A stretch of 64,000 bases of DNA from Paratrimastix pyriformis (Eukaryota; Preaxostyla; Paratrimastigidae). The position numbers and the translations under genes were made by a program. Every line of letters begins with the position of its first letter. The stretch's first letter is position 1. Location of the stretch: positions 1 to 64,000 of the forward strand of contig JAPMOS010000040.1 of assembly GCA_027972325.1 (NCBI GenBank), given 5' to 3'. Under the pieces are notes generated by a model that ran no database searches, had not been told where the DNA came from, and saw only the letters and a list, made by a program, of their open reading frames with translations. Of this stretch, positions 27,301 through 63,049 are shown piece after piece.

Positions 27301-28030
27301 CCACCGGGTCCTTCAGGCCCATGCCCCTTCATCCTCCGGGAAGAAAAGCACCTCCGCCGGATCGCACTTCCCCAGACAGCCACCAATCTCCTAAAGACCC
27401 TCGCAGATCTTTGCCGTAGGATCTCCAAGTCCTTCTTTGGCATGGGGCACTGTCTGGCCGTGTACTGGAGGCACGTCGACACGCACTCGTTGATCATCTG
27501 CACCATCAACCTCGGGGGACCTTCTTGTCCATCAGCCTGTGCAGCCTCCCGCACATTTTCTGGATGACCTTCTCCGTATTGATCTTCATGTTCATCTCCT
27601 CGTCTATCCAAATCCCCAGGTATCGGATGGCCCCACCCTTCTGCTGGACCTTGATGACTCGACCCTCACCCAGGTCCAGGTCCGTCTTGCTCTTCACCCC
27701 CCCACACAGGTAGTCACACTTGGTCCACGACAGCTGCATGCCCGCCTCCTCCACCTTCCGTCTCACTGTGTTGACCAACCGGACCATCTGCTCCTTGGTT
27801 CGAGTGACCAGCATAACATCGTCAGCAAAGGCAAGGACTTTCACCTTCCTCCCACTATCCAGGATATACCCACCTTCCTGCTTTCGCACCTCTGCCAGCA
27901 CTTCCTCCATGAATGAGATAAAGAGCAGACACGAAAGCGGGTCCCCCTGGCTGATACCCCTTTCTATGTCGTAGCTCTCTGTCAGTCCGTACCCTGTGAT
28001 CACTCTCGCCTTCCTTCCCTCGTACAGACT
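24370..28030 (-). pseudogene. LINE-B copy 1 ORF2, 3' portion (RT palm to C-terminal domain)
   Basis: This portion runs from the RT palm (SLYEGRKARVITGYG, GISQGDPLSC, AFADDVML near 27820) through the thumb, RNase H (YTDGSASRKKK, TNNEAELEAI, VWVKGHQETG), CWCGARDCTNH and the C-terminal domain (SFPEF, IFANPEY, FRCIAIVP). The 802-codon stretch 26778-24370 is open and identical in protein to copy 2. Upstream, frame changes near 26800, 27320 and 27530 coincide with one-base or short length differences from copy 2. The 5' end abuts LINE-D. Confidence 0.88.
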
Positions 28031-28232
28031 AGAGAGAGACATGCTGTGTATTTGCGAGGACGCAGGCGAAGAGAAACTTTACTCCCGCCTTCGCGTCGCG
28101 CGTTACACGTTCCGATGGGGGCCCTGGGCCTAATGACCTCGTGTTGGGCCCTCCTCGGCCGGGGCAGCCGCGGCGAGCGGAGCCCCAGTGGGTGGGTGAT
28201 AGGGGGCGGCGGGGAAGTGGGGGTGCCTTGTG

Positions 28233-28900
28233 TCAGGGGTGCGGCTCGTCGGCAGCCGCCCTGTTCCGCATGGTCATCAGGGCCAGGGCGTCGCGCACGA
28301 GCAGGGTGGCGAGGGAGGAGAGGCACTTCTGGAGGCCCAGCCGGATCTCAGGCGGGGAGGCCGGGGTGGTCCGAGAGAGGGCCTGCAGCGTGGCCCGAGG
28401 GACGACTCCCCGCGCCGAGAGGACGACCGGGACCACGCGGCAGGGTTGCCCGGTGGCTTTCGAGATCGACCGACAAAGCTCGGCGTAGTGGGTGGCTTTT
28501 CCCGCTGCCAGGGCGGGCCAACCCTGGCTGTCGCCCCTGTGATGGCCACGTCCACGAGCCACCAGGCGCCGTCGGGGCCCGAGACTGCAGGACCAGGTCC
28601 GGGTGCAGGTCTCGGAAGGCCGCTGGGATCTCATCCAGCAGGGGTTGCGGGAGGGCCGGCTGACGGTTGGTTGCCGAGACGCCCAGGTAGTGCCGGATCA
28701 CCCAGGCGTCCTGGCCGCCGAACCAGGCCCACAGGCGGCGGACGGCACGGTCGTGCCTGGCCGTGTAGTAGTGGTGGAACCTGCCGCAGGCCGACAGCAG
28801 GTGGGCCATGGTCTCTGGTGCCCCGTGGCAGAGCGGGCAGGGTGTGGTCCAGGCAGCGCCCCCTTGGCCCGCGTAGAGGGCGCGGATGGTTGCCAGGGTG
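28233..28900 (-). pseudogene. LINE-D zinc finger and restriction-like endonuclease
   Basis: After RNase H the minus strand reads CPLCHGAPETMAHLLSACGR (C-x2-C-x8-H-x4-C, near 28845-28805), then HPDLVLQSRAP (28612-28580), LVDVAITGATA (28566-28535) and KATHYAEL (28500-28477). Zinc finger, then PD...D-x-A...K, is the layout of the R2/NeSL-type restriction-like endonuclease of site-selective LINEs. The frame shifts near 28580 and near 28520, splitting the motif over two frames. The chemistry would be first-strand target nicking. Confidence 0.75.
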
Positions 28901-29209
28901 GGGAACGTGCCAAAGAGCAGCCAGACGAGGCGGCGCACCTTCCAGGCGGGGCCGCGAGCTGCCGCCAGGCCGCCGAGGCCAGCTTCTGCTCGAGTGTGTC
29001 GAGGGTCACCCCGATGAGGCCATGCTCCGGCGCTGTAGCCACTCGCGGCTGTCTTCCTCACATTGGAGGGCAAGGCAGAACCCCGGGCCGCGGCGGTGGT
29101 GAACGGTCGAGCAGGGAACGGCAGGGCGCATCCACCGGTCCTGATGGCCGGAACCGGAGCGGGGCTGGGCAGGTGAGGCCGATCTGTTGCGGGGCGGCAG
29201 GCTTCCGGG

Positions 29210-29690
29210 GTTGGTGGCGGGGCGGCGGGTCTGCCGCCGCGGCCTCCCGCCAGGCGGTCAGCTTGCAGGTTCCCCCCACAGTTGGGGGGCATGGGGGACG
29301 GCGACGTCGGCGTGTGATGGGACGTGGTGACAGAGGAGGCGCGGCCAGCGGGAGAGCAGCTCGTCGCGGATCCGGAGGACGGTCTGCTGGCACTGAGACA
29401 GGCCACAGGACCGGCAAAGGGCGCCGAGGGCGTATGAGCTGTCGGAGAGGAGCAGGATGGCTCGGCTCGGTGACACCCGCTCCCTGCTGAGCAGCTCGGC
29501 GGCCAGGCGGATGGCCTCCACCTCGGCCTGTGCGTTGCTGGTGGGCCACAGGAGCGTGCGGCGGAGCGCCACCGCTCTGCCGTCGGGGTGGATCAGGACG
29601 GCGGCCGCGCCCCCTCAGGAGCCCCTCGGGTCCGACCTCGAAGGAGCCGTCCGTGAAAACCTGTATCGAGTCCGCCGGCAAGGTGGGCAG
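29210..29690 (-). pseudogene. LINE-D RNase H domain
   Basis: Blocks in order are IQVFTDGSFEVG (near 29670-29635), NAQAEVEAIRLAAELL (29545-29500), LLLSDSSYALGALC (29455-29410), HVPSHADV (29325-29300) and ADRLA (about 29258). All four catalytic acid positions and the final His/Asp region of RNase H type I are recognisable across two frames. RNase H in an RLE-type LINE is less usual than in the I clade, but LINE-C in this window has it too. Confidence 0.75.
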
Positions 29691-30559
29691 CAGCTCCGCG
29701 AGACCCATCAGGCGGAGCTCCTTCCGGCGGTCGCGGTGGCCGGCCCCTGCGGGAAGACGTGGGCCCCCGGACGAGCTGGTTCCGGAGGAGCCAGCCTGGC
29801 CGCCGGGAGTTGGGGACGAGGCTGTAGGCGTGCCGGGCCTGGTCGTGCGCCAGCCATTGCCACAGGGCCTCAGGGACGGCGATCTCCGTGGCGCAGGACC
29901 TGCGGCGGCGCGGCGGCGGGCTGGGGAGTGAGGGGCGGGCGGCGGCCACCAGGACGCGGGCGAAGGCGTGGGGGCGGGCCCATTGGTCGAGGAAGTGGCC
30001 ACCTGGCGGGGGGTTGAGGAGCCGGGCCACCAGGCCCAGGTGGGCCTGACGCAGGGTGGCTTCGATGCGCGGGAGGCCGGGGCCCTGGCCGGGCAGGAAC
30101 AGGAAGGCCCGCGGGACGCCGGGGAGGAACTTGTCGGTCCCCAGGGGCGGCCCGTGAACCAGGCCGCCGCATAGCGAGCCAGGGTGTCTTCGAGCTTGGC
30201 GCACAGGTCGGCCGACGGGCACGCGGCGGTAAGGCCGTACACCAAAGTCGGAAGGGCCCATTGCTTTGTGGCCTCCACCTTTGCCAGCGGGGGGAGGGCG
30301 CAGCCGTGGATCAGGGCCAGCCTCTTGTCCCAGTTGGCCAGCACCCGCGGCAGGTGCGTGGCGGCGAGGCCCTCGGGGAGATGTCGTAGCCCAGGTAGGT
30401 GTAGGATCCGCTGGCCCCGCGGAGCCCAGTGTTGGGATGGCCTTCCCTTGGAGGAGTGCCCGGGCGCTGGTGTGCGGCTGACCCCCTTCGACTGCCAGCA
30501 GGGCGCACTTGTCGGTGTTGGTCGACTGGCGTGCCCAAGCCAGGAAGGCGTCGACCCGG

Positions 30560-31730
30560 TGGCAGAGGACGGCAAGGGCGGCGTCGCTGGGCGCGAGGAG
30601 TGCGATGTCGTCGGCAAATGCCTGGGTTGTTGCCGCGGTCGTGGGATCCTCGACCAGCCCCGCGCCGAGGTCCCCAGGGCTGGGTCGGCCATCGCCAGCC
30701 AACGAAGGAGTGGGTCGACCGCCAGCAGAAATATGATTGGTGAGAGCGAATCGCCTTGTCGGACGCCTCGGTCCAGGGCGATGCCCTCGGCGTCGTCCGG
30801 CCGGAGGCGCCAGGTCATCCGGAGTCCCTGATGCATCTCCATGATCACGGCCAGCAGGTGTTCAGGGATGCGGGCAAGCTCGAGGCCTTTCCGGATGACC
30901 CACCGCTCCACGCTGCCGAAGGCATTCCGCAGGTCAATGAACGCCACCCTGAGCGGCGCCTTTGCCCGATTGCGGCTTTCCAGCGTGGCCAGGAGGGTCG
31001 ACACGTGGAGCAAGGGCCCAAGCCCTGGGCAAAAGCCATGTTGCGAGGCCGCGAGGCGGCCGCGGTGGCCGAGCAGCACCGTCAGTCGTTGGCCGAGGAT
31101 CGCCCCATAGATCTTGGCCAGGACGTCGCAGAGCGCAATGTGCCGCCAGGAGCTGATCTCCCCCGGTGGCTTGCCCTTCTTGGGGAGGAGCACCGCCTCC
31201 GAGGTGCGCCACCGGGCGGGGGTGGTCTTCGACCGCCAGCAGGCGCGGTACAGGGCCAAGAGGGCGCCCGCGAAGGCCTCCTCCTTCGAAAGGCTCTTGA
31301 CGGCGTCGATCCCCACGCCGTCTGCGCCCGGAGCAGTGTGCGGGGCCGCGTGGGCGACCTGGCCCCGCACTTCGTCCATGCTGATGTCGTCCTCCAGGGC
31401 GGCGACCTCGGCTGCTGTCAGGGCCGGGACCGAGGCGGCCAGGGCAGCCCAGGGGATGTCCGCGTCGGGGCCCGGGCCGCCTCGAGAGGCGGCCTCTCGT
31501 CGGTGGTGCTCGCTGATCTGTTCCCAGGCGATCGGGCATGAGGGCCGGCCATCCTCGGCCGAGGAGAGCGAGGCGAAGAACCTGCGGCGGTTGCCGAAAA
31601 CAAGGCCAGCTGCCGGCGGGCCTTCGACTTCTCGGCGGCCTTCCGGGCCCGGACTCGAGCGGCGGCCAGGGCCGCCCGGGCGCCTCCACCCCGATAGGAG
31701 GCGGGCCGGGGCATTCCAGGGGCGGCGCAC
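30560..31730 (-). pseudogene. LINE-D reverse transcriptase
   Basis: The minus-strand frame from 31730 reads TAPGADGVGIDAVKSL, AVLLPKKGKPPGEISSWRHI, AKIYGAILGQRL, QHGFCPGLG, motif A FIDLRNAFGSVE (30945-30905) and motif B GVRQGDSLSPIIF (30775-30737). Motif C AFADDIALL (30625-30601) follows in another frame. The sequence resembles LINE-C RT (LPKKGKPP versus IHKKGKPP, RQGD-LSP) more than LINE-B. The group is close to R2/NeSL-like elements, judged from motif wording only. Confidence 0.82.
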
Positions 31731-32219
31731 TGAGAGCCCCTGGGCACGGAGCAGGGCGGCAATCCTGTGGGTCCGCCGGAGGGCGACGCGGAGGGTCCTG
31801 GAGCCACCTGTGGTTTGGCCCGCTTGGGTGGTGGCGCGGTGCGGGCGGGCGTCCGTCGGGCGAGGGCCGAGACCAGTGTCGCGAGGATGGCCTCGGGATC
31901 CGCCAGCCCCGCTGCGCCCCGCAGTGCATCCTGTTCGGCCTCGGAGAGCGGCTGGGGCGACCGGGGCTCCGATCCCCGGGCCCGGCGAGGAGGATCAGGC
32001 GGCTCATCGGCCTCTCCCCGGCGGTGGCGACGGCGGCTGACTGGCGGGGCCGCGAGGGGCGAGTCGGGGAAGCTGTGGAGGAGGGGCCTCGGGTGACGGA
32101 CACGGCCACCGTGGCCGTGGCCATGCCGCAGCGGACAGGGGAGATGAGGTGGAGGTGGACGTTGTGGCCGAGTTGGGGGTGAGGAGGGTGCAAAGGGCGG
32201 AGACCGCGGCGGAGATGGT

Positions 32220-32475
32220 GACGGGCTTCCTGAAGTGGCAGTCCCCGTTGGGGCGGTGGAGGAGATCCTCCAGCCGGCGCGTCCGCTCCAGAGGCCCCAA
32301 CAGGCAGCGACAAGTCGCCACGGTCGGCCGCGGGAAGTCTGCAGTGCGCCTCCGGCCCACCATCCGTTGTGCTGGCAGAAGCGCCGGGTCAGGTGGGTGG
32401 TGGAGCCGATGTACAGATGTCGGTGGCGATTGGCCAGGAAGTAGAGAACAGGGGCGTGCCAGTGATCCTGGTGGG
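32220..32475 (-). pseudogene. GIY-YIG nuclease-like domain in LINE-D
   Basis: I translated this stretch directly on the minus strand: PVLYFLANRHRHLYIGST, then THLTRRFCQHNGWWAGGALQ and TSRGRPWRLVAACWG. The LYFL...LYIGST pair is the GIY-YIG signature. RRF-QHN and GGA-T-RGRPW follow with the spacing of the SLX1-like branch. A frame change near 32300 leads to LERTRRLEDLLHRP, where the catalytic Glu would lie. Such domains make single-strand nicks; in retroelements I know them from Penelope-like elements. Here the domain lies upstream of a LINE RT that also has a restriction-like nuclease. Its position between ORF1 and RT is clear; whether it is on the same protein as RT is not, because frames shift. 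Confidence 0.75.
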
Positions 32476-32707
32476 CGTCCAGGCCGCCGGTGGCGCCGGA
32501 GGTGGTGGGAGTTCCGGGGGCCAGAGGGGGCACTCGCGGGGAGCTCTGCGGCCGGTGTTGCAGACGTCGGAGGGGTGGCGGACCGGGGTGTCGCGGGGTG
32601 GGGGCTGGCTCCGGCAAGCGGCTGGGGAGGAAGAGACAGCGGGCCGCCACGCGGAGGTCCGCTGGGGTGGCCGGGTTGGCAGCGGGGCACCCGCGATTGG
32701 GGCCGCC

Positions 32708-34365
32708 TTAGTAGACCGGGAGACGAAAGCACTGGCCACCACCGCATGAGATCAGGGAGCCAGGGGAACAAGGAACGTCTGTGGGGAAGTGCTGGCTGGG
32801 TGGCCGGGCGGCGGGGCGGCTGGGGCGGGAGGGGACGGCCTGGGGAAGGGTGCCCGGGGGAAGCCCGGGACGGCCAGGGGGGATGCCCGAGGCCAGAGAG
32901 CGAGGGAGATGGGAGGAGCGGCGCCCGGTGGCACGGGGGCCCGGATGCGCCGTCGCGGGCCCGCCATTGCTGTGGTGGAGTGCCGGGGCCGTGGCAGCCC
33001 GGGGGATGGCCTCTTCCGGGGGGAGGCGGTTTTGGGCGACGGCCGCCTTGGACCAGGCCACCCTGGAGGTGGAGGTGGAGAGGACGATGTCCAAGTCCCT
33101 CCGCGAGGCAAAGGTCGCCCAGGCGCTGCGGCCCAGGCCGGACTGGCGCACAGTGGTCGGCTTTGCAGCCATGCACTCGGGGAGACCGCGGGGAAGTAGA
33201 GCTCCAGAAGGGGCTCCGGTCCCCGGGCAGCCCTGGGTGGCGCGGGGCAGCTGTCTTGTTGGGCGGCGGCCGGGGAGGTGGGGCCGGGTACTGGCGGCCG
33301 GGAGGGAGTGGGGCCAGCGGGTACTGGGAAGGGGGCCTGGGGCTTCGACAAACCGAGGGCAGCTGCTGTTCTGTTGGACCAGACGGCCGGATACCGCCCC
33401 GGCCGCCGAGATGGCGCCCTCAGCGGCGTCTCTGGTGTCGAAGCGGAGCCAACACCGATGGCCGGGGGTCTGCTCGGCACCGGGGGGCGGCGGACCCTGG
33501 GGAAGAAGACCTCGAAGCGTGGTTTGCGGGCCGGAGGCCCCTGCTCCAGCAAGAGACGGGTTGATCGCGGAGGGTGCGGGCTGGGCAGCGGGGGTCGTCT
33601 GGGCGGTGGGGGCGGTGGTTGCCTTGGGGCCGCCTGAGCGAGGGCCTTCACCACCAAGCCGACGGCGGGGATGGTTGGGGCGGGGCCCCTGGAGGGCGGG
33701 GCTCGTGGGGCTGAGAGGGCCGGCTTTGGAGGGGTTGGCGGGGTGTCGCCATGGGGTGGGGGCCTGGGCGGGCGGACGGGGACCATCCGGCGTTGCGGAA
33801 TGCTGCTGCAGCCGCAGCAGGGTTGTCTGCAAGGAGGAGCAGGAGCCGGACCCCACCGCGGCTTCATTCTCGTCCACAACGGTCCTCTCGGTGCCGGACA
33901 GTACATGGTAGGTGTCAGGGGTGGAGGAGGGGATGATTGCGACTTCATGGCCGCTTCGGGGCTCCCTTGGTGGGAGAGGCAGGCCACGAGGCGGTACCTG
34001 ATCCCGCCGATGCTGACGGCGGCCGCGTGCAGCGCCTGCCGGGCGGAGCCCGCAAGGACCCCGTCCGTGGAAACAGCGATGAGAGGGGCGGCATGGAGGG
34101 CGCAGATGTCGTGTCTCTTGCCCCCGCAGAGGCACTTCGACGAGAAGGCGGTGTCCAGGGCCTCCACTGGGATAAGGGCCCGGGGCTCTCCCACGAGGTG
34201 GCGTGGCCACAGCGGGAGCACAGGGAGGCACCCTGGCCTCAGACCCCAGAGGTCACGCCGGGGTGAGGCTTCAAGTGTGGCCAGCAGGAGCTCCGAAGCG
34301 TCCGCGAAGGCCCCAGGGCGAACGGGACATGACAGCACAGTCGACCGGACCATGGCGGCCATCAT
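32708..34365 (-). pseudogene. LINE-D Pro-rich ORF1 region with Cys/His stretch
   Basis: A long minus-strand open region encodes Pro/Arg/Ser-rich protein. Near its start it has the less biased stretch FSSKCLCGGKRHDICALH and AVSIGGIRYRLVACLSHQG. Several alternative frames stay open because of GC-rich composition, so the true frame is uncertain. By position, between the 5' ORF and GIY-YIG/RT, it would be the gag-like or ORF1 C-terminal part. I recognise no family. Confidence 0.4.
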
Positions 34366-35658
34366 GGGTTGCGGGTCGACCGGCAGGGCGTGGGGTCCAT
34401 GGCCTGCGCAACTGCTCGGCCGATGTGGTCCAGGGCCTCCGAGCCGGCCAGCAGTGTCTCAGTCGCACCCGGGGCCGCCATGCGGACTGCGGCCAGGGCG
34501 TGGATCATGGCGGCATATGCACAGCTCCGGCTGTCAGAGTTGTACACCCCGGGAGGTGGCCAGGCTTCGTGGGGAGGGACTCCTTCGGCGGGCGCGCAAG
34601 CGGGCGAGGCGGCTCAGGGGTCCTCTGAGCGGCGCGGCTGCTGTGAGGAGCTGCTTCACTGTCATGCTCTGGCGCTTGGCACGGAGGCCCTGGATCACCA
34701 CTTTTGTAAGGTGGAGACTTTGCGGTCCAATTCCTTTGGTTTCCGCGTCTCCACCGCTGCCATACATGCCCACAGCCACTGGGAGGGGATCGGGTCGAGG
34801 AGGGCCTGGAGAGCTGGAATCTCCATGTCGGGGTCCAGTACCTTCTCAAGGGCCTCTTCATCCATCGGTGGGAGGCGGACCGCGGGGGCGGAGGGGGCCG
34901 GTCGAGCGCCTGGCGGTTTGTTGGCGGCGGGGCGGGCGCCGCAGTGCCCTCGTCTGCGTCATCGTCCAGGATTGGTAAGGGTTGCGGTGAGTCAGGAGAC
35001 ACAGCGGCGGGGGCGGACGTGGCGGGGTGGGGGATGCTGGGGGCAGAGGCAGGTGCCGGGGGCGGCCCCAGGGGCATGTGTGGCTGCGGGGGTGGCCGGG
35101 GCGGTGACCGCCAGGTGCTCCTGCTGTTGTTGCTCCGTTGCCGCGGCTGCAGCTGTGGGGAGTGGTGTGGTTGGGGCTGCTGCTGCTGCAGGGCGACAGC
35201 GCCGTCTGTGGCTGGGAATGCCCCACCCTCCTTCGGGGCACTGGGCCGGACTGTGGCGTCGTTGACAGGGGAATGGCCCCGTGGGTGGAGGCTGGTGTTG
35301 GGCGGGGCTGGATGGGGGTGTGGATGGGGGTGTGGATGGGGGGGTGGATGGTGGGCGGGGGGTGGGCGGCCCAGCCGGGGAATCTGGCGTAGCCGGGATC
35401 TCGATTGGGAGGCTGGTCCCCGGGCGCGGGCGCTGGGCGAGCTGGCCACCTGCGTCAGGTGAGTCGGACCGGGCGGCCCCAACCTCCGGCACACCACGCC
35501 GAAGCCCCGGCGGCGGGTGGTCGTCGGTTTCCAATCTGTGAGATAGGGTGCGGAGCCAGCATCCGAGGAGAGGGAGAGGGACAGGCCAAGGGAGTTTCTT
35601 GCGCGCCAGAGTCCTGCAGCAGATGGCCCGGGGAGCCGTCAGCAGAGGGCTCCTTCCC
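34366..35658 (-). other. LINE-D Pro/Gln-rich ORF1 middle region
   Basis: All frames are long and biased (Pro, Gln, His, Ser) with no recognised domain. The part near 35060-35220 encodes Gln-rich runs. It links the SAP-like 5' ORF to the Pro-rich region downstream. I cannot choose a single reading frame. Confidence 0.35.
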
Positions 35659-36120
35659 TCATCCGAGGGGGGAAGAAAAATCGGCACCGGTGCCGGGGTT
35701 TGAACCCGAGTCGTCTGCATCACGAGCACCTTCCATTCCACCTGGACCACTGGGCTTCTCTGGGGGAGGATTGGCGGTGGGCGCCTCAGGCGCAGTGAGC
35801 GATGGAGCTGACGCCAGTGTCACAACTTGGGTTGGAGGTACGAAGCCACGCCCGGTCAGATCGATCCAGGAGGCTACACGCAGCAAAATGACGACCATTG
35901 CCGGCGATGCATGTAAAATAGCGAGTCGTTCACTAATCTGTGGCAGGTTGGCGGATTTGGTGGGTGAGAATGAGATGCCCAACGATTTCGCAAGCTCCTT
36001 GAGTCTCTGCGATTGAAAGAAAGTCAGAATCTGATTCCAATACTCCATTGAATATGGTTGATTGAAGGGGTCCTCCGTTGAGGGCGAATTGGTTGATGAT
36101 TGATTTTCGGTCGACGACAT
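35659..36120 (-). CDS. LINE-D ORF1 N-terminal part, SAP-like
   Basis: The ATG at 36120 is 34 bp from the element 5' end and opens MSSTENQSSTNSPSTEDPFN. Then come WNQILTFFQSQRLKELAKSL, GISFSPTKSANLPQISERLA and a Ser/Pro/Glu-rich linker. RLKELAKSLGI...LPQISERLAIL fits the helix-extended-helix pattern of SAP DNA/RNA-binding domains. The R2 protein has a comparable stretch. The frame is open for 153 codons and then probably continues in another frame. The start so close to the 5' end suggests that the copy is full length. Confidence 0.55.
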   Translation of the reverse strand: MSSTENQSSTNSPSTEDPFNQPYSMEYWNQILTFFQSQRLKELAKSLGISFSPTKSANLPQISERLAILHASPAMVVILLRVASWIDLTGRGFVPPTQVVTLASAPSLTAPEAPTANPPPEKPSGPGGMEGARDADDSGSNPGTGADFSSPLG

Positions 36121-36154
36121 GCTGGAAATTCGAATTTCGAAAGTTGAATGGCGA

Positions 36155-38070
36155 ACTATCTACGTACCTGATGAATGCCTCCTCAACCCCCATCCGTCTC
36201 AACCCCCTCCTCAGTGCGTCCATGTCCACCGTGTCGTATGCTTTTTTTATGTCCAATGAGCACATATGGAACTCTCGACCTCCCATAATTTTCGAGTCAG
36301 TGAGCACTCCCATAATCTCTGCGATTGGGGTCTCAATCCTCCGACCCCTCAAGAATCCAAACTGCTCCGCCCCAAACACTTGCTTCTCTACGCACCAGTC
36401 TTGAAACCGCGACGCCACCACCACCTGCAGCCCCTTCAGAAAAACTTGGATCAAAGTGATCGGTCTCCTTCCTGCCGGGTCCCCCGGGTGCTCCGTCTGC
36501 GATTTCGTGGCCATAAACACCGAGCTAATCTTGAGCTCCTGCGGCACCTCACTCTTTTCCAGCATCTCATTATATCTCCTTCTCATCCACTCCTTGATCT
36601 CATCCTGACAGGCGTGAATGTCCGGGCCCGCTGCCTTGCCATCTGGGAGTGCTCCCAGGATCGTTTCAACGTCATGCATGGTAAGGGGGGCCATGATGAC
36701 CCTCTCCTCCTCCTGAGACCTTCCCACCGGTGCCTGCTTCATTCCGCCCATCGGCATCACTCTCCTTGCCAGGTCCGCCATGAATTCCCTCCATCCCCTC
36801 TTCACCAATTCTGGATCTGTCACCACCTTATCCACCTTGCCTTCACCGTTCTTGGTGGCATACGCCGTGACGGGCGCCACCCCGTCAGTCATTATGCCCT
36901 TATATATCCGTTTGCGTTTTCCCTCCAACGCCCTGTCCCGCTTCTTGTAGTGCATGCTTCTCATCTTTGCCAATTGGCGCTGCATCTCCTCCTCCTTTCC
37001 GAGTCCTCTCCTCCACCGCCCTCCGCCGCAGCTTCCTCATGCGGTGGGGTCAGTCCCGATCCGTATTTGTAACCTCCCGGTACCCAAACACATGCCCCGC
37101 CGTTTCCTCAGGATCCGACCCATCTGTTCGAATGACAGCTCTCCCCCTTCCCGATGCCTTTCGAATCATCTCCGCCACCTTCCTCCTATATGAGCCCATC
37201 TTCTCCACCAACACATCGTACTCTTCTCTCCCTTTTTCACGCAGCAACGCGTCCAAGTCCGACCTGGACGGGCAAATGGCCACCTTCCTCCTTGTCGTCC
37301 CCGCCCATGCCGGCAGCATGTTCCTCAAGTCAGTCACGACCATGTGATGGTCTGTAACTTCGCTCCACTGTATCTCCTCATTTCTCCATACCCATAGGTT
37401 ATCGAGCATCCTTGCCATCGTCCCTTGCGTTGCGAGGCAAAGGTCCAACCGAGCCACCCCTTTCATCCCCGGCTGCTTGTCCTTCTCCTCTGCATCCCCC
37501 CCCTTCTTGTTCCGCACAAACGTGATCTCATTCTCCTTGCCTACCATCTTCGCCGTGTCATACAGTCCCAACTTCTCATGCTCTCCGACTTCCTTGGCCC
37601 AGCTATTCGCATCCGTGTACACCACCACTCCCTTCCCTCTGCCGCCCCTCCGCCATGCACTCATCCAGCCTTTCAATAATCACCTTCCTGACCCTCTCCT
37701 TGTCATCTCCATCCCCAGTCGGATAGTACATATTCACCAGCCGGAGGTTGGTCTTTCCCTCCGACCAGTCCATGTACATCAAATAGCCCGGCAGGACCTC
37801 CGTGACACGACGCACCGCCATCTGCAGGGTCCGTCTATATCCTATCATCACCCCCCCCTTGGGGTGACGCTCCACCGCATTCTCCACCACCGAACTCCTC
37901 CACCGCCATCCCCTCATCCACTTCTCCTCCAACTGCTCCTTATTCGCCTTCGTCCCCTTTGTTTCTTGCAACAGGGCAATGTCTACCCGTCCTACCCGCA
38001 ACAGGTCCGCCACATTACTTCGCTTCCACTCTGACCCAAGTCCTCGCACATTCCACCCTGCCACCCGCAT
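36155..38070 (-). pseudogene. LINE-B copy 1 ORF2, 5' portion (APE endonuclease and RT fingers)
   Basis: The ATG at 38070 opens MRVAGWNVRGLG. VDIALLQETKGTK, LRLVNMYYPTGD, VVYTDANSWAKEV, RLDLCLATQG and WSEVTDHHMVV give the complete motif set of an APE-type endonuclease. A basic linker (KMRSMHYKKRDRALEGKRKR) leads into RT: LPDGKAAGPDI, GRRPITLIQVF, FLRGRRIETPI and motif A SLDIKKAYDTVD. Frame changes occur near 37640 and near 37040-36990, at one-base differences from copy 2. The portion ends where LINE-D is inserted, after AFIRYVDS. Confidence 0.85.
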
Positions 38071-44855: not shown

Positions 44856-45109
44856 ATGATCTTTGAGCCTGTTGGGTATACAGTGCTAAGAGGAAAAAAA
44901 ACGCACGCACGAAATCTTACTGGCGGCGTCCTCCTCCTATCGCGCTGTCGTGGCTCGTCCCACCCCTGCGCGGATCAGGGCGACCCGTGAAGGTGTCGTA
45001 GGGGGATGGAGAAATCCACTTGGGGCTGCGGCCGGGCGGTGGATCTGGGTGCTGGCTCGGTCCCTGCGGTCACTGTCGCGCATGAGGAACAGTGCCAGTA
45101 TGCTCCGCG

Positions 45110-45895
45110 TCAAGTCCCCGCTGATCCTCCGCAGGCCTCGCAGAGCGTCTTGTGTTCAGTGCCAGGGACGAGCTGGAGGAGGTCCCGAACCGACTGTCCC
45201 GGGATGCACCCGGTGGCCCCGAAGAGAAGGGGCTCGGTTGTCGAACCCCGCCGCCTGGCAGTAGCCCCGATACTGGGCGAGCTTCCCGTCCCGCGCTTTT
45301 GCCAGGTCCTCGTCCCGCACGGCAGTGGTGACGGCCAGCTCGATGACAGTGGGGTCTCCGGCCCTCCCTCGCCGGGGCACACCAGCAGGTCGGGTCGGAG
45401 GTGGCGCAGGTGGGCCGGGATTCGCGCCTGGAGCTCCTCCGGGATCTGGGTTGCCTTGCGTGCGTTGGCTGCCGAGTCGTGGACGACCACCTTCAGGCCG
45501 GCGGCCGTGAGGGCCCTGGCCAAGGCCCGGAGCACCTGGTCATGGCGCTTCACATAGAATAGCCGGAAGTGGCGGCAGCCCCCAGGAGGTGGCTCTGGGT
45601 CTCCACGGTCCCGCACCCGAATGGACAGAGCGCGGATCCCCGGCCCCCCCGAGCCGGGCCTTGACCTGATTGACCCCCAGAAGGCCTGGCACTTGGCTGC
45701 ACACAGCTTGCGCACCGTGGAGAGTGGCTCGCCGCGCCTGGTCCACCAGGTGTTGCTGACCCGGGCCGAGATGGGTTCAAGTGGGTGGTAGGCGTACGGA
45801 CACGCCAGCCAGTCGCGTGCCTCCTCCTCCTCGTGGGCCAGCCTTGCCAGGGTCGTGAGCAGTGAGCGTGTGAGGAATTTGTGCGAGAAGGGCAA
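45110..45895 (-). pseudogene. LINE-C zinc finger and restriction-like endonuclease, copy 1
   Basis: The minus strand reads ALCPFGCGTVETQSHLLG (45625-45577), RHFRLFYVKRHDQVL, LRPDLLVCPGEGG (about 45400-45370), TVIELAV (45351-45332) and KARDGKLAQYRGY (about 45295-45260). CCHC-like finger, then PD...E-x-A...K-x-x-QY, is the R2-type restriction-like endonuclease. The frame shifts between PDLLV and VIELAV in this copy, while the second copy (63681-62911) reads through. Confidence 0.8.
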
Positions 45896-46049
45896 TGGGG
45901 ACTCGGCTGGGCCTGAGGGCCACTGGGCGGGGCCGATTGGGCCGCAAAGCTCTTGTGTTGGGAATGTGGCCTGGATGCCCCCTCTGTCTGGTGGTCCCCG
46001 AGGCGCGCCGCCTCAGCCAGGCGGTCGGCCAGCTGGTTGCCAGGGATGG

Positions 46050-46450
46050 AGGGGATCACCAGGGCCCCGGGATCCGGTCCACGTGCGCCGGGACGTAGCG
46101 GAGGACCACAGGCTTGGCCACTTGGAGGGCCTCCCGGAGGGCCAGCACCCGCGCGTGCGCAAACTGGATTCGCGTCCACCCCGCCGCAGCGCCCAGGGCA
46201 TACTGGCTGTCCGCACAGATGGCCACCGGCTGGTGTGGAGGAGGCGCCCGTCGGCCCGGGCGGACTTGATGGTGGCCGCGGCGAGCTCCAGCGCGGCTAG
46301 CTCCGCGTCGCCGTTCCCCGCGCCTGTGGGGAGGCGCACGGCGGCCGCGGTCGTCCGGTCTCGGGTCATGAGCACTGCCGCGGCGCCGCCGCCCTGTCCT
46401 TGTTGGAACGATCCGTCCGTGAAGAGGAGCGCCGCATTTCGCGGGACCGT
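46050..46450 (-). pseudogene. LINE-C RNase H domain
   Basis: AALLFTDGSFQQGQGGGAAA, GNGDAELAALELAAATIK, ICADSQYALGAAAG and RYVPAHVDRIPG, followed by IPGNQLADRLAEAA in the neighbouring frame, give all RNase H type I blocks in order. Confidence 0.82.
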
Positions 46451-46639
46451 GCTCAGCCAGCAGAGGTACGTCTGGAGCTCCGTCAGCTTGTTGAGGGCCG
46501 GGTGGCGCTCCGGTGCCTTTCGGGAAAAGAGCTTGGATGCCCGGATGGTCCGCTGCTGGACCGCCCATCGTCCAGCTATGCGACCGATGCGGATCTTCCG
46601 TCGGTCTTCGTACCAGGCCACCCAGGTCCACAGGTCCCA

Positions 46640-47972
46640 GTTGTTGGCCGGTGCCTCGTGTCCCCGTGGTGCTCTCGGTGCCGGAACTCCTCTGCCAGGG
46701 GGACTGCTGCCGCGGCCCAGTGCTCGCGAGCCGCGGGGTCGGTCGGTGGTATCAGGATCCGGCCGATCAGTCCGAGTTTGAGGGTCTCCTCGAGCCGGTC
46801 CAAGTGGGGCCCCCAGCCCCCATGCGCGGCAGGAGTGAAGAGCAGGAGCTCCGGCATGCCCGGCAGGCACCAGCGTTTCCGGGTGGGCGCCATCTCTCGG
46901 GGGTTCAATAGCCAGTTGTTGCACGAGTCCCGGATGCTCCGTTGGACCCCAGCCATCCAGCTTGGGGGCGGGGCAGACAGCGAGGACATGCTGCAGGACG
47001 GGCAAGGCAAGGGAGGCCAGCGTATCGATCTTGGCCAGCGGGGAGGTGGGATGTGCCGATGGCGGTGAGGCGAGCTTCGAATTCGATCCGGGCGGCCTCC
47101 AGCGCCGGCGTCGAGTCCAGCTCCCAGCCCACCTCGACCCCAAGGTAACGGAACGTCCCGCCCAGGGCCAGTGGGGGATCCGGCCGGCCGGCGCGCAGAT
47201 GTCCACGTCCGCAGGTGGGCACTGGCGGCCCTGGCTGGCCACCAGGGCGGCGCACTTGGGAGGTTCAGGTGAAGGCCCGACCAGGCCCCGAACTCCGCGA
47301 TCACTCGCAAGGCTCGGGTCAGGGCCTCCTTGTCGCGCGCGGCCATGGCTAGGTCATCGGCAAATGCCAAAACGAGGAGGCCATCGATCCGGGAGAGCGC
47401 ATGTAGTAGCGGCTCCAGCGCGAGAATGAAGACAGTTGGACTCAAGGGGTCCCCCTGCCGAGTGCCACGGCCCAGCGGGATGGGGGCGCCGGCTTCTCCT
47501 TCAAAGGGCAGGCACATCTCAATGTCGCGGTAAGTGCCCATGATGGCGCGCCGCAGTGTCGGTGGGACCCCACCCCACCGGAGACTGCCTCCAGGGCGTC
47601 CCGCCCCAGGGTCCCGAAAGCATTGGTGATATCGAGAAAAAGTACGCCCGCGAAAGGGGGGCGCTCACGGCGGGCCCTGGTGATCCAGGCCTGCAAGCGG
47701 AGCACGGAGAAGTGGCTCTCCTGGCCCCGGATGAAACCCGCCTGTGCCCCACTGATCCGGCCGGCCCTGAGCAGGAAGTCCTCGAGGCGGCGCGAGAGCA
47801 GGGCTCCGTAGATTCGCGAGAGTTGGGCCGTGAGGACCACATGGCGCCAGCTCCGGATCTCCTCCGGCGGCTTCCCCTTCTTGTGGATGAGGACGGCCAC
47901 GGCCCGGGCCCAGCTGCGCGGGACTGTTCCTTCGGCCAGGCACATGTTGAAGAGGTGGAGCAGGGCGGCCAT
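46640..47972 (-). pseudogene. LINE-C reverse transcriptase
   Basis: Blocks are AVAVLIHKKGKPPEEIRSWR, LSRIYGALLSRRL, SGAQAGFIRGQES, motif A VLFLDITNAFGTLGRD (about 47640-47600), motif B GTRQGDPLSPTVF (47470-47431) and motif C AFADDLAMAA (47372-47341). Thumb-region sequence (LALPVLQHVLAVCPAP) follows in another frame. The N-terminal RT blocks are lost at the unit boundary. Confidence 0.85.
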
Positions 47973-48217
47973 GAACGGGGAGGGGGGGCCGTCCCGGGCA
48001 CGCAGCTCCTCGCCTTCGTCCAGCAGTCGTCGTGTGTGTGTGTGTGTGTGTGTGATACTTCCCAGCTTTCGCCGGGTCCGTGCTCGGGCCGAAGCCCGCG
48101 GGTAACATGAACCCCCCGGTCCGCCCTCCCCGCGAGATAAACTCGCAGGATGGGACGTCCCAAGAGGCCCATGGGTCGGCTACCGTCCCCGAGGGACGGT
48201 CACCGCCGACCCCCGGA

Positions 48218-51200
48218 CTACGTCTCCTCGTTCATCCCTTCTTCATTTTTCTCGTTCTTCTTTCGTTGCATGATCGCCAGCAGCATGGTTTTGCGGAGTG
48301 CACCAATTTCGCTCCCAATCTCCTTTTGGGTGTCTTCATCCACAATCCCCAACTCTGCTGCCAGTCTGCAATCATTCGCGTACATCTCTCGAAATCCGCA
48401 CCGCCTCCGAAGTCTTCCCGCAACTTTCCGCACCACCCCCTCTGAGATCCCCCTCCAGTTGTGGAGCACCTCGCCCTCCTTCGGACGCCCCTCGTAGTCA
48501 GCCTCCACCTTCCGCGCACCCGCCTCTTTCCGAAGCATATTCTCCAAAGCCCACAACGGGGCAGGATCCATCGGAAATCTCTCCCGGGCCCTCTGGTTCT
48601 CAAAGAGCAGGATGCCCACGTCGAACGGGGCCTTCCCCGCACCTTTCTCCCCTGTCCGCCAGAAGCTCGGCAGCCAGAAGCCGAAACCCCCTTCCTCAAT
48701 GATAAACAGCTCCTTCAATCGCATGTCCCCCCTCAAGGCCAATCCGACGCCATGCTGCGCCTCCATTCCCTGCACCGGCCGCGTCCGGTTGGGCTTACCC
48801 ACCCCGTACGGGACGATTGCGATGCATCGGAAAGCTCTCTTCCCAGCTCTTCCCATTGGACTCTCTGCCCAATCGCCAATTGCCTTAAATAATCGGTCCA
48901 TCTCTTCCTGGGGGTTGTACTCCGGGTTGGCAAAGATGAGGAGGTCACGATTCTCCTTGAACAGCCCATATCCATCCAGTCTTCCACCCAAAAAACAATC
49001 ATCTTTGCTGGGTGTTCTGAATTCGGGGAAGCTCAAATCGGCATTCCCAGGATGCGAGAATGCCATCGTTGTCAAACTGCCTGCTTGTCTGAGCAGAGAG
49101 GACACCACGTGGGGGGTCGTCCACTGGTTTCGCAGGGTGCTCTTGTGGGTCTGCCCTTCTGCCATCTCCGTGCTCACTCCATCCGCGTACCGATCGCACA
49201 GGTTCGCCACTTCTGTTGAAAATGTTTCCCAGAAGCTGTCCCAGGTTCGGGCGCGGTACCAGCGCCCCCGCGATCGCTCGATGAGCTCCCAGAGTCTGTC
49301 CATCGCTATCTGCTTACCTCTCACCTGCACACTTCGGCCCATAGGCTCCACCCATTTTTCTTGGAGCAATTGTTCTGCATCTTCTGCTCCTTCCCCCTTG
49401 TCCAGCCACGCGATCAGTTTGATCGCGTTGGCACCACTCCACCTTTCCGCGACACTGCCCATCATCGAAGGGCATTCGAAAACCAAATGGTTTGTACAAT
49501 CTCTCGCCCCACACCAACATTTCCCATCCCCTTCACCATTGATGTAGAATCTGATGTTGGCCGTGATGTAACGCTGCAAGATTGCCATCATGGCCAGTCT
49601 GCCCGACATTTCGCATCGCATGGTCTGCGTATTTATTCCGCCATTTCCCGTCTGAGCATTGATGACCACTAGTGCATTCTTGCACTTCTGGGCTGTCCTG
49701 AAGATGCGCCCTTTGCGGCCCCACTCTTTTAGGTTTTCACGAAAATCTCCCTCCACCGTCTTTCCATCGCTCCGCCGGACAAGCCGAAATCCCCAGGTCT
49801 GCTCTTGCGGCTCCTTGGTGCTCTCCAGTTTTATACTCTGGCCTGCAATCTTGTCCGCCAACCTATTCCCCTCCGCATCCAGCGATGCCCCTGTCTCCTG
49901 GTGCCCCTTTACCCAAACCAGCCTGACCTCGCCCCTATGTTCCTCCAAGATTCGTTGGCCCCTCCGAAGAAGACCCTCAGCCTTCGACTCGATTAGGTCG
50001 GTCGGCGTCCAGTCTCTCCTCATCAGCCCTTCCACCCATCCCTTTGCCACCTTGCTGTCCGTGCGCACCTCCACGTTTGCATCCTGTCCCACCCTGATGG
50101 CCTCCAGGATGGCCTCAAGCTCTGCCTCATTGTTTGTTTGCCCCCTGCCCGTGCACCTTCTTCCAACCCGCACTGCCAGCACCCCGTTGGGCAGCCGCTC
50201 CACCACCGCCAGTGCCGCTCGCCGGTCCTTCTTCTTCCTGGATGCACTACCGTCCGTATAGAATGTCCGCCACTTGAGTTCGGGCTCCTCTACCCGCACT
50301 TCCACCTCGTCGCATTCCGCTCGCAGCGCCTCCATTCTGCTCCTCATGCCGCCATCTTTGTTTCCCTCCTGCTTCAGGCGCCCCCTTGTTGCATTCGTCG
50401 TCCCACTCGCCCCTACCTTCTCTTTTTTACCCTCCCTGTCGCCCTGCGTCTTTCTCCGACACGTCGCCGGCACCACCACCGAGAGCTTCCCACTCTGCCC
50501 CAAAGCCAACTTGGTCTGCTTCTTCCCCTTCTTTGCTTCTCCAGTCTTGCAGCCGGCTCCATTGACCTTGTCCTCGCCATTCCTCTGCTTCAATGCCCTC
50601 TGGCTCCCCTCCCTCGCTCTCTCCATCCTTGCTTTCTCTCTTTCCTTCTCCGCCGCCTCTTCCTCTCTAATCCGCCTCGCCAGCTTCACGTACTCCGTCT
50701 CCACTCTGTTCCCCCAGACGCAGACCCGCTCCATGATGGCTTTGACATACTGTGGCTTCCTGCCCTTCCACTGGAACCTACCCCCCACTATCAGGTCTGC
50801 CACGCTCCTGATCCCCCTCCTCATCAGTGTTTGTCTGTGTTGCTTGGTGATCCTGTGCGGGCTTGCCAATTCCTCCAGTGTTGTTGGCATCCCATACCCC
50901 TGCTCCTCTTTCAGCTCCTCGCCCTCCCTGAGAATGGCCAGATCATTCCTGGACATGACCTGCAGCATCCCCGAGAGGATGCCAGGCATCTTCTCCTTTC
51001 CGTGGAGCCTTACCCACTTACCCGGGTCATCCAGCAGGGGTTCACTTGTGGTCCACAACTTCTGAAGAAGTGCAATCTCCTCACGGAGCATCACCCCACA
51101 TCCTTGCTCATCCGCCACTCTCCCCAACAACTGTGTCAGCACCATCATATCATGCACATCCACCGGGTCCTTCAGGCCCATGCCCCCTTCATCCTCCGGG

Positions 51201-52528
51201 AAGAAAAGCACCTCCGCCGGATCGCACTTCCCCAGACAGCCACCAATCTCCCTAAAGACCCTCGCATATCTTTGCCGTAGGATCTCCAAGTCCTTCTTTG
51301 GCATGGGGCACTGTCTGGCCGTGTACTGGAGGCACGTCGACACGCACTCGTTGATCATCTGCACCATCAACCTCGGGGGGACCTTCTTGTCCATCAGCCT
51401 GTGCAGCCTCCCGCACATTTTCTGGATAACCTTCTCCGTGTTGACCTTCATGTTCATCTCCTCGTCTATCCAAATCCCCAGGTATCGGATGGCCCCACCC
51501 TTCTGCTGGACCTTGATGACTCGACCCTCACCCAGGTCCAGGTCCGTCTTGCTCTTCACCCCCCCACACAGGTAGTCACACTTGGTCCACGACAGCTGCA
51601 TGCCCGCCTCCTCCACCTTCCGTCTCACTGTGTTGACCAACCGGACCATCTGCTCCTTGGTTCGAGTGACCAGCATAACATCGTCAGCAAAGGCAAGGAC
51701 TTTCACCTTCCTCCCACTATCCAGGATATACCCACCTTCCTGCTTTCGCACCTCTGCCAGCACTTCCTCCATGAATGAGATAAAGAGCAGACACGAAAGC
51801 GGGTCCCCCTGGCTGATACCCCTTTCTATGTCGTAGCTCTCTGTCAGTCCGTACCCTGTGATCACTCTCGCCTTCCTTCCCTCGTACAGACTATCTACGT
51901 ACCTGATGAATGCCTCCTCAACCCCCATCCGTCTCAACCCCCTCCTCAGTGCGTCCATGTCCACCGTGTCGTATGCTTTTTTTATGTCCAATGAGCACAT
52001 ATGGAACTCTCGACCTCCCATAATTTTCGAGTCAGTGAGCACTCCCATAATCTCTGCGATTGGGGTCTCAATCCTCCGACCCCTCAAGAATCCAAACTGC
52101 TCCGCCCCAAACACTTGCTTCTCTACGCACCAGTCTTGAAACCGCGACGCCACCACCACCTGCAGCCCCTTCAGAAAAACTTGGATCAAAGTGATCGGTC
52201 TCCTTCCTGCCGGGTCCCCCGGGTGCTCCGTCTGCGATTTCGTGGCCATAAACACCGAGCTAATCTTGAGCTCCTGCGGCACCTCACTCTTTTCCAGCAT
52301 CTCATTATATCTCCTTCTCATCCACTCCTTGATCTCATCCTGACAGGCGTGAATGTCCGGGCCCGCTGCCTTGCCATCTGGGAGTGCTCCCAGGATCGTT
52401 TCAACGTCATGCATGGTAAGGGGGGCCATGATGACCCTCTCCTCCTCCTGAGACCTTCCCACCGGTGCCTGCTTCATTCCGCCCATCGGCATCACTCTCC
52501 TTGCCAGGTCCGCCATGAATTCCTCCAT
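48218..52528 (-). CDS. LINE-B ORF2: RT, RNase H, Cys/His motif and methyltransferase-like C-terminus
   Basis: 1436 codons are open. Residues about 30-370 are RT (AAGPDIHACQDEI, GRRPITLIQVF, motif A LDIKKAYDTVD, motif B GISQGDPLSC, motif C AFADDVML at about 281, LGIWIDEE). Residues about 755-895 are RNase H (YTDGSA, TNNEAELEAI, VRTDSKVAKG, VWVKGHQETG, GNRLAD). Around 1005-1020 is CWCGARDCTNHLVFECP. Residues about 1140-1345 form a domain with SFPEFRTPSKDDCFLGG, IFANPEYNPQEEM (about 1200), RAFRCIAIVP and FDVGILLFEN. Block order there resembles PCIF1-like N6-adenine methyltransferases (FGS-G, NPP[FY]-EE-M, IVP, VxFLQN). The real ORF2 start is upstream at the endonuclease ATG (53799); the Met at 52528 is only where the frame reopens. 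Confidence 0.88.
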   Translation of the reverse strand: MEEFMADLARRVMPMGGMKQAPVGRSQEEERVIMAPLTMHDVETILGALPDGKAAGPDIHACQDEIKEWMRRRYNEMLEKSEVPQELKISSVFMATKSQTEHPGDPAGRRPITLIQVFLKGLQVVVASRFQDWCVEKQVFGAEQFGFLRGRRIETPIAEIMGVLTDSKIMGGREFHMCSLDIKKAYDTVDMDALRRGLRRMGVEEAFIRYVDSLYEGRKARVITGYGLTESYDIERGISQGDPLSCLLFISFMEEVLAEVRKQEGGYILDSGRKVKVLAFADDVMLVTRTKEQMVRLVNTVRRKVEEAGMQLSWTKCDYLCGGVKSKTDLDLGEGRVIKVQQKGGAIRYLGIWIDEEMNMKVNTEKVIQKMCGRLHRLMDKKVPPRLMVQMINECVSTCLQYTARQCPMPKKDLEILRQRYARVFREIGGCLGKCDPAEVLFFPEDEGGMGLKDPVDVHDMMVLTQLLGRVADEQGCGVMLREEIALLQKLWTTSEPLLDDPGKWVRLHGKEKMPGILSGMLQVMSRNDLAILREGEELKEEQGYGMPTTLEELASPHRITKQHRQTLMRRGIRSVADLIVGGRFQWKGRKPQYVKAIMERVCVWGNRVETEYVKLARRIREEEAAEKEREKARMERAREGSQRALKQRNGEDKVNGAGCKTGEAKKGKKQTKLALGQSGKLSVVVPATCRRKTQGDREGKKEKVGASGTTNATRGRLKQEGNKDGGMRSRMEALRAECDEVEVRVEEPELKWRTFYTDGSASRKKKDRRAALAVVERLPNGVLAVRVGRRCTGRGQTNNEAELEAILEAIRVGQDANVEVRTDSKVAKGWVEGLMRRDWTPTDLIESKAEGLLRRGQRILEEHRGEVRLVWVKGHQETGASLDAEGNRLADKIAGQSIKLESTKEPQEQTWGFRLVRRSDGKTVEGDFRENLKEWGRKGRIFRTAQKCKNALVVINAQTGNGGINTQTMRCEMSGRLAMMAILQRYITANIRFYINGEGDGKCWCGARDCTNHLVFECPSMMGSVAERWSGANAIKLIAWLDKGEGAEDAEQLLQEKWVEPMGRSVQVRGKQIAMDRLWELIERSRGRWYRARTWDSFWETFSTEVANLCDRYADGVSTEMAEGQTHKSTLRNQWTTPHVVSSLLRQAGSLTTMAFSHPGNADLSFPEFRTPSKDDCFLGGRLDGYGLFKENRDLLIFANPEYNPQEEMDRLFKAIGDWAESPMGRAGKRAFRCIAIVPYGVGKPNRTRPVQGMEAQHGVGLALRGDMRLKELFIIEEGGFGFWLPSFWRTGEKGAGKAPFDVGILLFENQRARERFPMDPAPLWALENMLRKEAGARKVEADYEGRPKEGEVLHNWRGISEGVVRKVAGRLRRRCGFREMYANDCRLAAELGIVDEDTQKEIGSEIGALRKTMLLAIMQRKKNEKNEEGMNEET

Positions 52529-53799
52529 CCCTCTTCACCAATTCTGGATCTGTCACCACCTTATCCACCTTGCCTTCACCGTTCTTGGTGGCATACGCCG
52601 TGACGGGCGCCACCCCGTCAGTCATTATGCCCTTATATATCCGTTTGCGTTTTCCCTCCAACGCCCTGTCCCGCTTCTTGTAGTGCATGCTTCTCATCTT
52701 TGCCAATTGGCGCTGCATCTCCCTCCTCCTTTCCGAGTCCCTCTCCTCCACCGCCCTCCGCCGCAGCTTCCTCATGCGGTGGGGCTCAGGTCCCGATCCG
52801 TATTTGTAACCTCCCGGTACCCAAACACATGCCCCGCCGTTTCCCTCAGGATCCGACCCATCTGTTCGAATGACAGCTCCTCCCCTTCCCCGATGCCTTT
52901 CGAATCATCTCCGCCACCTTCCTCCTATATGAGCCCATCTTCTCCACCAACACATCGTACTCTTCTCCCTTTTCACGCAGCAACGCGTCCAAGTCCGACC
53001 TGGACGGGCAAATGGCCACCTTCCTCCTTGTCGTCCCCGCCCATGCCGGCAGCATGTTCCTCAAGTCAGTCACGACCATGTGATGGTCTGTAACTTCGCT
53101 CCACTGTATCTCCTCATTTCTCCATACCCATAGGTTATCGAGCATCCTTGCCATCGTCCTTGCGTTGCGAGGCAAAGGTCCAACCGAGCCACCCTTTCAT
53201 CCCCGGCTGCTTGTCCTTCTCCTCTGCATCCCCCTTCTTGTTCCGCACAAACGTGATCTCATTCTCCTTGCCTACCATCTTCGCCGTGTCATACAGTCCC
53301 AACTTCTCATGCTCTCCGACTTCCTTGGCCCAGCTATTCGCATCCGTGTACACCACCACTCCCCTTCCCTCTGCCGCCCCCTCCGCCATGCACTCATCCA
53401 GCCTTTCAATAATCACCTTCCTGACCCTCTCCTTGTCATCTCCTCCCCAGTCGGATAGTACATATTCACCAGCCGGAGGTTGGTCTTTCCCTCCGACCAG
53501 TCCATGTACATCAAATAGCCCGGCAGGACCTCCGTGACACGACGCACCGCCATCTGCAGGGTCCGTCTATATCCTATCATCACCCCCCCTTGGGGTGACG
53601 CTCCACCGCATTCTCCACCACCGAACTCCTCCACCGCCATCCCTCATCCACTTCTCCTCCAACTGCTCCTTATTCGCCTTCGTCCCTTTGTTTCTTGCAA
53701 CAGGGCAATGTCTACCCGTCCTACCCGCAACAGGTCCGCCACATTACTTCGCTTCCACTCTGACCCAAGTCCTCGCACATTCCACCCTGCCACCCGCAT
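52529..53799 (-). pseudogene. LINE-B copy 2 ORF2 5' part: APE endonuclease
   Basis: The ATG at 53799 matches the copy 1 start MRVAGWNVRG. Recognisable pieces are GGVMIGYRRTLQMAVRRVTE, LRLVNMYYPTG, VVYTDANSWAKEV and WSEVTDHHMVV, in different frames. The breaks coincide with one-base length differences from copy 1 (for example in CCC or GGG runs near 52530, 53150, 53230, 53370 and 53590). The basic linker before RT is at 52775-52600. Confidence 0.78.
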
Positions 53800-62966: not shown

Positions 62967-63049
62967 TGTTGTGGGAATAGGGTTGTTTCCCCCTGGTTTG
63001 CCCCACCAAGAGATTCAGCCATTGCCAACGTCCCTTGAGAGTGACTACA
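62967..63049 (+). repeat. 3' terminal direct repeat (83 bp)
   Basis: Identical to 60813-60895, preceded by the purine-rich AAGGAGGGTGG. Confidence 0.92.

Follow-up and report, generated by a model that had tools for sequence, protein, structure and literature searches.

A long interspersed nuclear element (LINE) of the anaerobic protist Paratrimastix pyriformis (Metamonada, Preaxostyla) has two unrelated nucleases in a single second open reading frame (ORF2), a GIY-YIG domain of the SLX1 type ahead of the reverse transcriptase (RT) and a restriction-like endonuclease (RLE) at the C terminus. The copy under study, a member of what we call family D, lies on the minus strand at positions 28031 to 36155 of the window, which is the whole stretch of 64,000 nucleotides that was analyzed (contig JAPMOS010000040.1 of assembly GCA_027972325.1, positions 1 to 64,000). 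We have little doubt that the two-nuclease architecture is real, and chance co-occurrence is excluded because the combination recurs in many loci and in three families. We also consider it fairly probable that the window element is a damaged copy from a clade of RLE-type LINEs with an SLX1-type GIY-YIG domain before the RT, in which the RLE would make the first nick and the GIY-YIG domain would carry out a second-strand step.

Two nuclease domains in one LINE reading frame

Locus L015 of the same genome contains one uninterrupted frame of 1519 amino acids in which GIY-YIG, RT, RNase H, CCHC, and RLE follow one another in this order. Pfam detects RVT_1 (1.6e-20), RNase H (4.2e-6), and a weak zf-RVT match in this ORF2, and its GIY-YIG domain scores 21.4 bits, slightly below the cut-off of 22.6; the corresponding scores are 27.5 bits in L025 and 48.9 bits at C484. 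In a second family (L029), a frame of 1744 residues has the identical domain order, and in a third (L030 and L073) the parts are spread across frames. When ORF2 was compared with the sequences in the PDB, there were 15 matches at E ≤ 0.1, five to R2 (the best at ~1e-27), five to LINE-1, and five to SLX1, with no telomerase chain among them. No APE domain (PF03372) was detected at E ≤ 1 in the L015 ORF2, in two pieces of L025, or in the L010 frame that includes ORF1, and Pfam detected no RING finger in ORF2 at the same threshold.

In the window copy, the parts named in the original prediction are found on the minus strand in the order that it gave, based on Pfam and on tblastn against L015. The GIY-YIG domain (32196 to 32452) is frame-shifted and split between two frames, and is recognized by Pfam, by profile match, and by tblastn against L015; Pfam gives it 23.1 bits within the ORF at 31418 to 32707 and 26.4 bits at 32303 to 32449 in a genome scan. 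It is followed by the LINE RT (30165 to 31424), which matches RVT_1 at 4.8e-12 and has 77% identity to L015, and then by three parts located by tblastn against L015: RNase H (29270 to 29675), the CCHC zinc-binding motif (28741 to 28893), and the RLE (28236 to 28773; main segments 88 to 97%), the last of which corresponds to the C-terminal region whose profile matches R2.

To characterize the first nuclease, we used a profile built from eight GIY-YIG domains that represent three families of this genome. At E ≤ 1, the only solved chains that this profile matches are five of SLX1 (best, 3e-17) and two UPF0213 proteins, which bears out the earlier description of the domain as SLX1-like. The domains of families A and C have 26 to 30% identity to that of L015, and in the eight-row alignment Y17, Y27, G29, R37, Q40-H41-N42, W58, E76, and P82 are invariant. 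The invariance of all catalytic positions across three families this divergent points to catalysis rather than binding alone. In a small tree that includes a subset of the viral rows, the LINE domains group with SLX1 and a host SLX1-like exon, apart from giant-virus relatives (93/80), and the group of LINE domains is itself weakly supported (85/71). The row "virus_L023" in this tree is mislabeled, as L023 is a family E LINE locus.

Substitution patterns were compared for both nucleases. Within family D, the GIY-YIG core has a nonsynonymous rate (dN) of 0.019 and a synonymous rate (dS) of 0.175, which is a ratio of 0.11. Between families D and E, its dN is 0.289 and its dS is 1.064 (ratio, 0.27), a dS that is near saturation, and deeper pairs are of little information; for the same pair of families, dN/dS is 0.29 for the RT and 0.27 for the RLE. 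These values show that in both nucleases the protein is constrained more strongly than silent sites.

The profile of the C-terminal region was built from six C termini, half of them from this genome and half from database proteins. It matches the CCHC-endonuclease region of R2 (945 to 1162) at 2.8e-17 and also reached two unrelated chains, at E values of 0.29 and 0.98. In the underlying alignment, the C, H, and C of the CCHC motif, R.D, PD, and K are invariant. An RT tree of 28 rows unites the metagenomic protein P0002 with the three GIY-YIG families in one clade (100/100), which joins the RLE LINEs P0004 to P0007 (97/90), and these together join the group that includes the R2 rows (83/85). 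R2 is the only named clade among the labeled rows of this tree, which is without CRE, NeSL, Hero, Dualen, or Penelope-like element (PLE) rows; five rows outside the GIY-YIG clade drew long-branch warnings, and ten rows, two of them GIY-YIG rows, drew a composition warning. Based on the intact relative, the profile matches to SLX1 and R2 chains, and the RT tree, the combination originally proposed for this insertion, GIY-YIG plus RLE in one LINE, is supported.

Protein searches yielded 22 database proteins (14, 1, and 7), with two of the searches scoring only the 8000 candidates that shared most words. The RLE is detected by profile in 10 of the 22, in one of them weakly, and GIY-YIG in 4, all from Paratrimastix; the other 18 were not matched by the GIY-YIG profile, which was built from this genome, and their gene models may start late. 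P0002 is a metagenomic RLE LINE whose gene model begins at the RT, and its position inside the clade in the RT tree suggests that the clade probably extends beyond Paratrimastix. Among 47 viral-contig loci with GIY-YIG relatives, none matched the RT or the RLE profile at E ≤ 0.01, and neither the RT alignment nor P0002 found a relative when used to scan viral contigs.

Other GIY-YIG sequences are present in this genome. A separate SLX1-like exon (FYCCYLL...YIGFTVNPPRRIRQHNG) at C463:709703-709873 (L127) is probably part of the SLX1 gene of the host itself. A stand-alone GIY-YIG protein of ~254 amino acids (MKYYIYKIVNT...ELYIGSTKNI) occurs in ~30 near-identical copies, including L005 to L009; it is unlike the LINE domain, and we rejected these proteins as parts of the LINE. 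L077 (C135:484500-485500) contains another divergent GIY-YIG domain, in which the second motif is SCG instead of YIG. The public gene model P0001 on C488, "E3 ubiquitin ligase hectd1," joins a LINE ORF1 and GIY-YIG domain to RING-like and F5/8 domains and is probably a gene-prediction artifact.

Retention of the GIY-YIG domain and pattern of insertion

We searched the genome with a segment made up of the GIY-YIG domain plus the linker. Clustering of family D and E loci used 98 of the 126 rows of the first search, the 28 excluded rows being 11 of family A and 17 overlapping fragments of listed loci; 19 of the 117 rows of a second search also entered, and these served only to extend loci. This gave 67 clusters, of which 63 extend to the RT side and were kept as loci, the other 4 being set aside. 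GIY-YIG sequence is retained in 47 of the 63, with 46 of these beginning at query position 14 or earlier and one (C460) at query position 36, inside the domain. The other 16 break off within the linker at points scattered from query position 99 to 284 (one of them at a contig start), which matches what 5' truncation predicts. The original prediction had called for a search for copies lacking the domain; among these 63 loci, no internal loss of GIY-YIG was seen. By-eye counts for the other families gave 8 of 10 loci with the domain in family A, plus a ninth that begins inside it (≥74% identity, with a lone 52-residue C39 fragment excluded), and 11 of 13 in family C (≥61% identity among those counted); in both families the remainder begins further 3'.

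At its 3' end, the element reads GCAAATACACAGCATGTCTCTCT followed by CT. This conserved 23-base 3' terminus, at 28033 to 28055 on the minus strand of the window, recurs across the genome, with 419 places matching it when up to 2 mismatches are allowed and none matching the reversed control. The common 3' terminus and the scattered 5' breakpoints are features of insertion in the style of target-primed reverse transcription. Of 40 D and E copies, 21 have a 3' flank rich in (GAT)n or its complement (ATC)n, compared with 620 of 19841 background windows (3.1%; Fisher 2.5e-21), where the 40 flanks are a nonrandom set from the first 48 of the 419 places (omitting two that were already loci, five on C78, and one on C87) and the background, taken from the window and loci L009 to L032, is element rich. 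The preference is partial, because the other 19 flanks are not rich in the repeat. In family C, L030 and L074 terminate at (TG)n, and in L073 the (TG)n lies 5' of the element; for family A, no target was recognized. Related dual-nuclease LINEs are thus found with different microsatellites, family C abutting (TG)n and D/E favoring (GAT)n, although family C copies are few. Microsatellite targeting fits RLE LINEs in general, according to passages of PMC4640811.

Proposed roles of the two nucleases

The element belongs with the RLE LINEs (the R2-type group), as it has a LINE RT, a C-terminal CCHC motif and RLE, and insertion in the style of target-primed reverse transcription. In the mechanism that we propose, the RLE would nick the target strand, and the RT would copy the element RNA from this nick, as in R2, for which target-primed reverse transcription from an RLE nick is established. 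The GIY-YIG domain would then cut the second strand or a four-way junction of the intermediate, and this cut would provide the primer for second-strand synthesis. SLX1 enzymes are structure specific, and cellular relatives with GIY-YIG domains cut branched DNA. The second cut of R2 is made in vitro on an open four-way junction, as part of PMC6895275 describes, and together with the structure specificity of SLX1 this leads us to put most weight on the GIY-YIG domain acting on a branched intermediate, less on its making the first nick, and least on a role without target cutting. Whether the labor is divided between the RLE and GIY-YIG in this way we would put at about even or slightly better. 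More tentative, and somewhat short of even, is the wider proposal that an SLX1-type nuclease was acquired early by a previously undescribed clade of LINEs and has persisted in at least three diverged families, with target nicking by the RLE separate from resolution of the branched intermediate by GIY-YIG.

Several points weigh against this reading. The RLE of R2 makes both cuts, so that a second nuclease is dispensable. SLX1 works together with SLX4, and the GIY-YIG domain of these LINEs is without the RING finger of orthodox SLX1. In the intact family D ORF2 frame, the first Met (residue 465) is downstream of GIY-YIG, which bears on how that part could be translated. (In L025, a Met lies 7 residues upstream of the domain, and in L010, ORF1 and ORF2 are in one frame of 1317 amino acids, which is not so in other copies.) A target-site duplication is readable at one insertion only, dS between D and E is near saturation, as noted above, and the cutting roles of both domains here are predicted.

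It is possible but unlikely that the roles are swapped, with GIY-YIG making the first, RT-priming nick, as proposed for PLEs, and the RLE making the second cut. In PLEs, GIY-YIG is the sole endonuclease, and active-site mutants lose DNA cleavage in vitro (excerpts of PMC11167929). Both nuclease domains are also conserved in the LINEs described here. However, their GIY-YIG domain is of the SLX1 type, the cellular members of which are structure specific. In addition, RLE LINEs without a GIY-YIG domain typically target microsatellites (parts of PMC4640811), which makes the RLE side the likelier chooser of the target.

We think it quite unlikely that the GIY-YIG domain has no part in cutting the target during insertion and instead has some other function, for example in binding branched DNA or in acting on DNA of the host or nucleic acid of the element itself. 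The lack of a detected RING finger in ORF2 would fit such a role, as would the broken domain of the window copy and the C460 locus that begins inside the domain, but the catalytic positions are all invariant in the eight rows from three divergent families. It is very improbable that a fragment of host SLX1 was captured by chance near the window copy or that the arrangement is an assembly artifact. A separate host SLX1-like exon does exist, at the C463 position given above, and there are many small indels among the copies in the assembly; against this, dozens of loci, spread over different contigs and three families, have this domain at the same place, where it is under constraint and, in L015 and L029, is in one uninterrupted frame with the RT and RLE. 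A nested host gene or artifact was therefore rejected. Membership in the PLEs, the known retroelements in which GIY-YIG and an RT are likewise within one protein, is scarcely credible and was rejected on the RT matches, which are to R2 and LINE-1 and are not telomerase-like; the RT also groups with RLE LINEs (in a tree without PLE rows), and the element also has RNase H, CCHC, and RLE.

Comparison with known systems places the RLE LINE with GIY-YIG as follows. It resembles R2 and the RLE LINEs P0002 and P0004 to P0007 in its RT, its C-terminal CCHC motif and PD...K endonuclease, its target preference, and its short duplication, and differs from R2/RLE LINEs in the SLX1-type GIY-YIG domain before the RT, the RNase H between RT and CCHC, and a protease-like ORF1 region. 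Like Dualen/RandI, it has a second, N-terminal nuclease ahead of the RT in addition to the RLE, and RNase H is reported there too (passages of PMC3636483 and PMC4640811). Unlike Dualen/RandI, its second nuclease is GIY-YIG, and membership was rejected on the missing APE domain, in a comparison of domain content. It differs from PLEs in having an RT of the LINE (R2/L1) kind by PDB matches and a GIY-YIG domain of the SLX1 type; in the sections available of a 2006 survey of the GIY-YIG superfamily, Penelope is a family separate from Slx1 (PMC1564403). With SLX1 it shares the GIY-YIG core, without a detected RING finger and fused to a LINE polyprotein. The same survey, in those sections, defines orthodox Slx1 by a C-terminal RING finger and includes RING-less SLX1-like proteins (PMC1564403).

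RLE LINEs are already known, and what is new here is one to which a second nuclease, of a new type, has been added. We found no description of GIY-YIG plus RLE in one LINE in the portions of the open-licence literature that were searched, so that one may exist elsewhere. If our reading is right, retroelements took up GIY-YIG nucleases on more than one occasion, drawing on separate branches of the superfamily, and LINEs came to have two nucleases by more than one route, with APE plus RLE in Dualen and GIY-YIG plus RLE here. The pairing could help to show how LINEs complete insertion. Second-strand cutting and priming by LINEs are poorly understood, with the same RLE of R2 thought to cut the open four-way junction (part of PMC6895275). 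A separate SLX1-type nuclease would allow the two cuts to be disabled singly, making the second-strand question directly testable.

The window copy, its ORF1, and neighboring elements

The ends of the window copy come from its blastn alignment to further copies in this genome of 56 Mb. Of the extent first given, 28031 to 36154, the 3' end at 28031 stands, and the 5' end moves to 36155. The element is a LINE nested in another LINE rather than in a microsatellite, and the RT halves of the interrupted LINE are in the ORFs at 35933 to 37036 and 27506 to 28078. L010 holds an uninterrupted copy of the interrupted LINE, and comparison with this empty site reveals a target-site duplication of 2 to 3 bp, at 36156 to 36158 on the 5' side (TAG, or AG if the T is the element's) and at 28029 to 28031 on the 3' side (TAG or AG), and no poly(A) tail at the 3' end of the element. 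Compared with L010, L011, L017, and L019, the window copy is truncated at its 5' end by ~95 bp. It also has several frame shifts, including a 4-base deletion within the GIY-YIG domain relative to L011, L012, L017, and L019.

ORF1 starts at 35815 to 36120 on the minus strand with a conserved N-terminal segment (MSSTENQ...) that is 100% identical to L017 over 102 residues. Further along, upstream of GIY-YIG, the ORF1 region has a Cys box, DASEL, two Cys pairs, and a GH box, and D and E have 41% identity there. We tentatively take this motif pattern to be that of a USP-type cysteine protease (33851 to 34710, minus strand); the Pfam UCH score is 15.6 bits, below the cut-off of 23.9, which keeps the protease reading tentative. 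In NeSL and Utopia LINEs, passages of PMC4640811 describe cysteine proteases of a different, Ulp1-like type.

Two further LINEs of the same clade, both of family C, are present on the minus strand of the window. One, at 45078 to 48047, has no GIY-YIG match, is seemingly 5' truncated, and lies beside the frame of an APE-type LINE at 48221 to 52534. Another, at 63043 to 63998, runs beyond the end of the window, where there is a GIY-YIG domain at C333:66410-66970. In L012, L013, and L016, family D copies are arranged head to head with divergent relatives (~68 to 69% identity) that are apparently 5' truncated, and the head-to-head junctions in L013 and L016 are a few bases apart.

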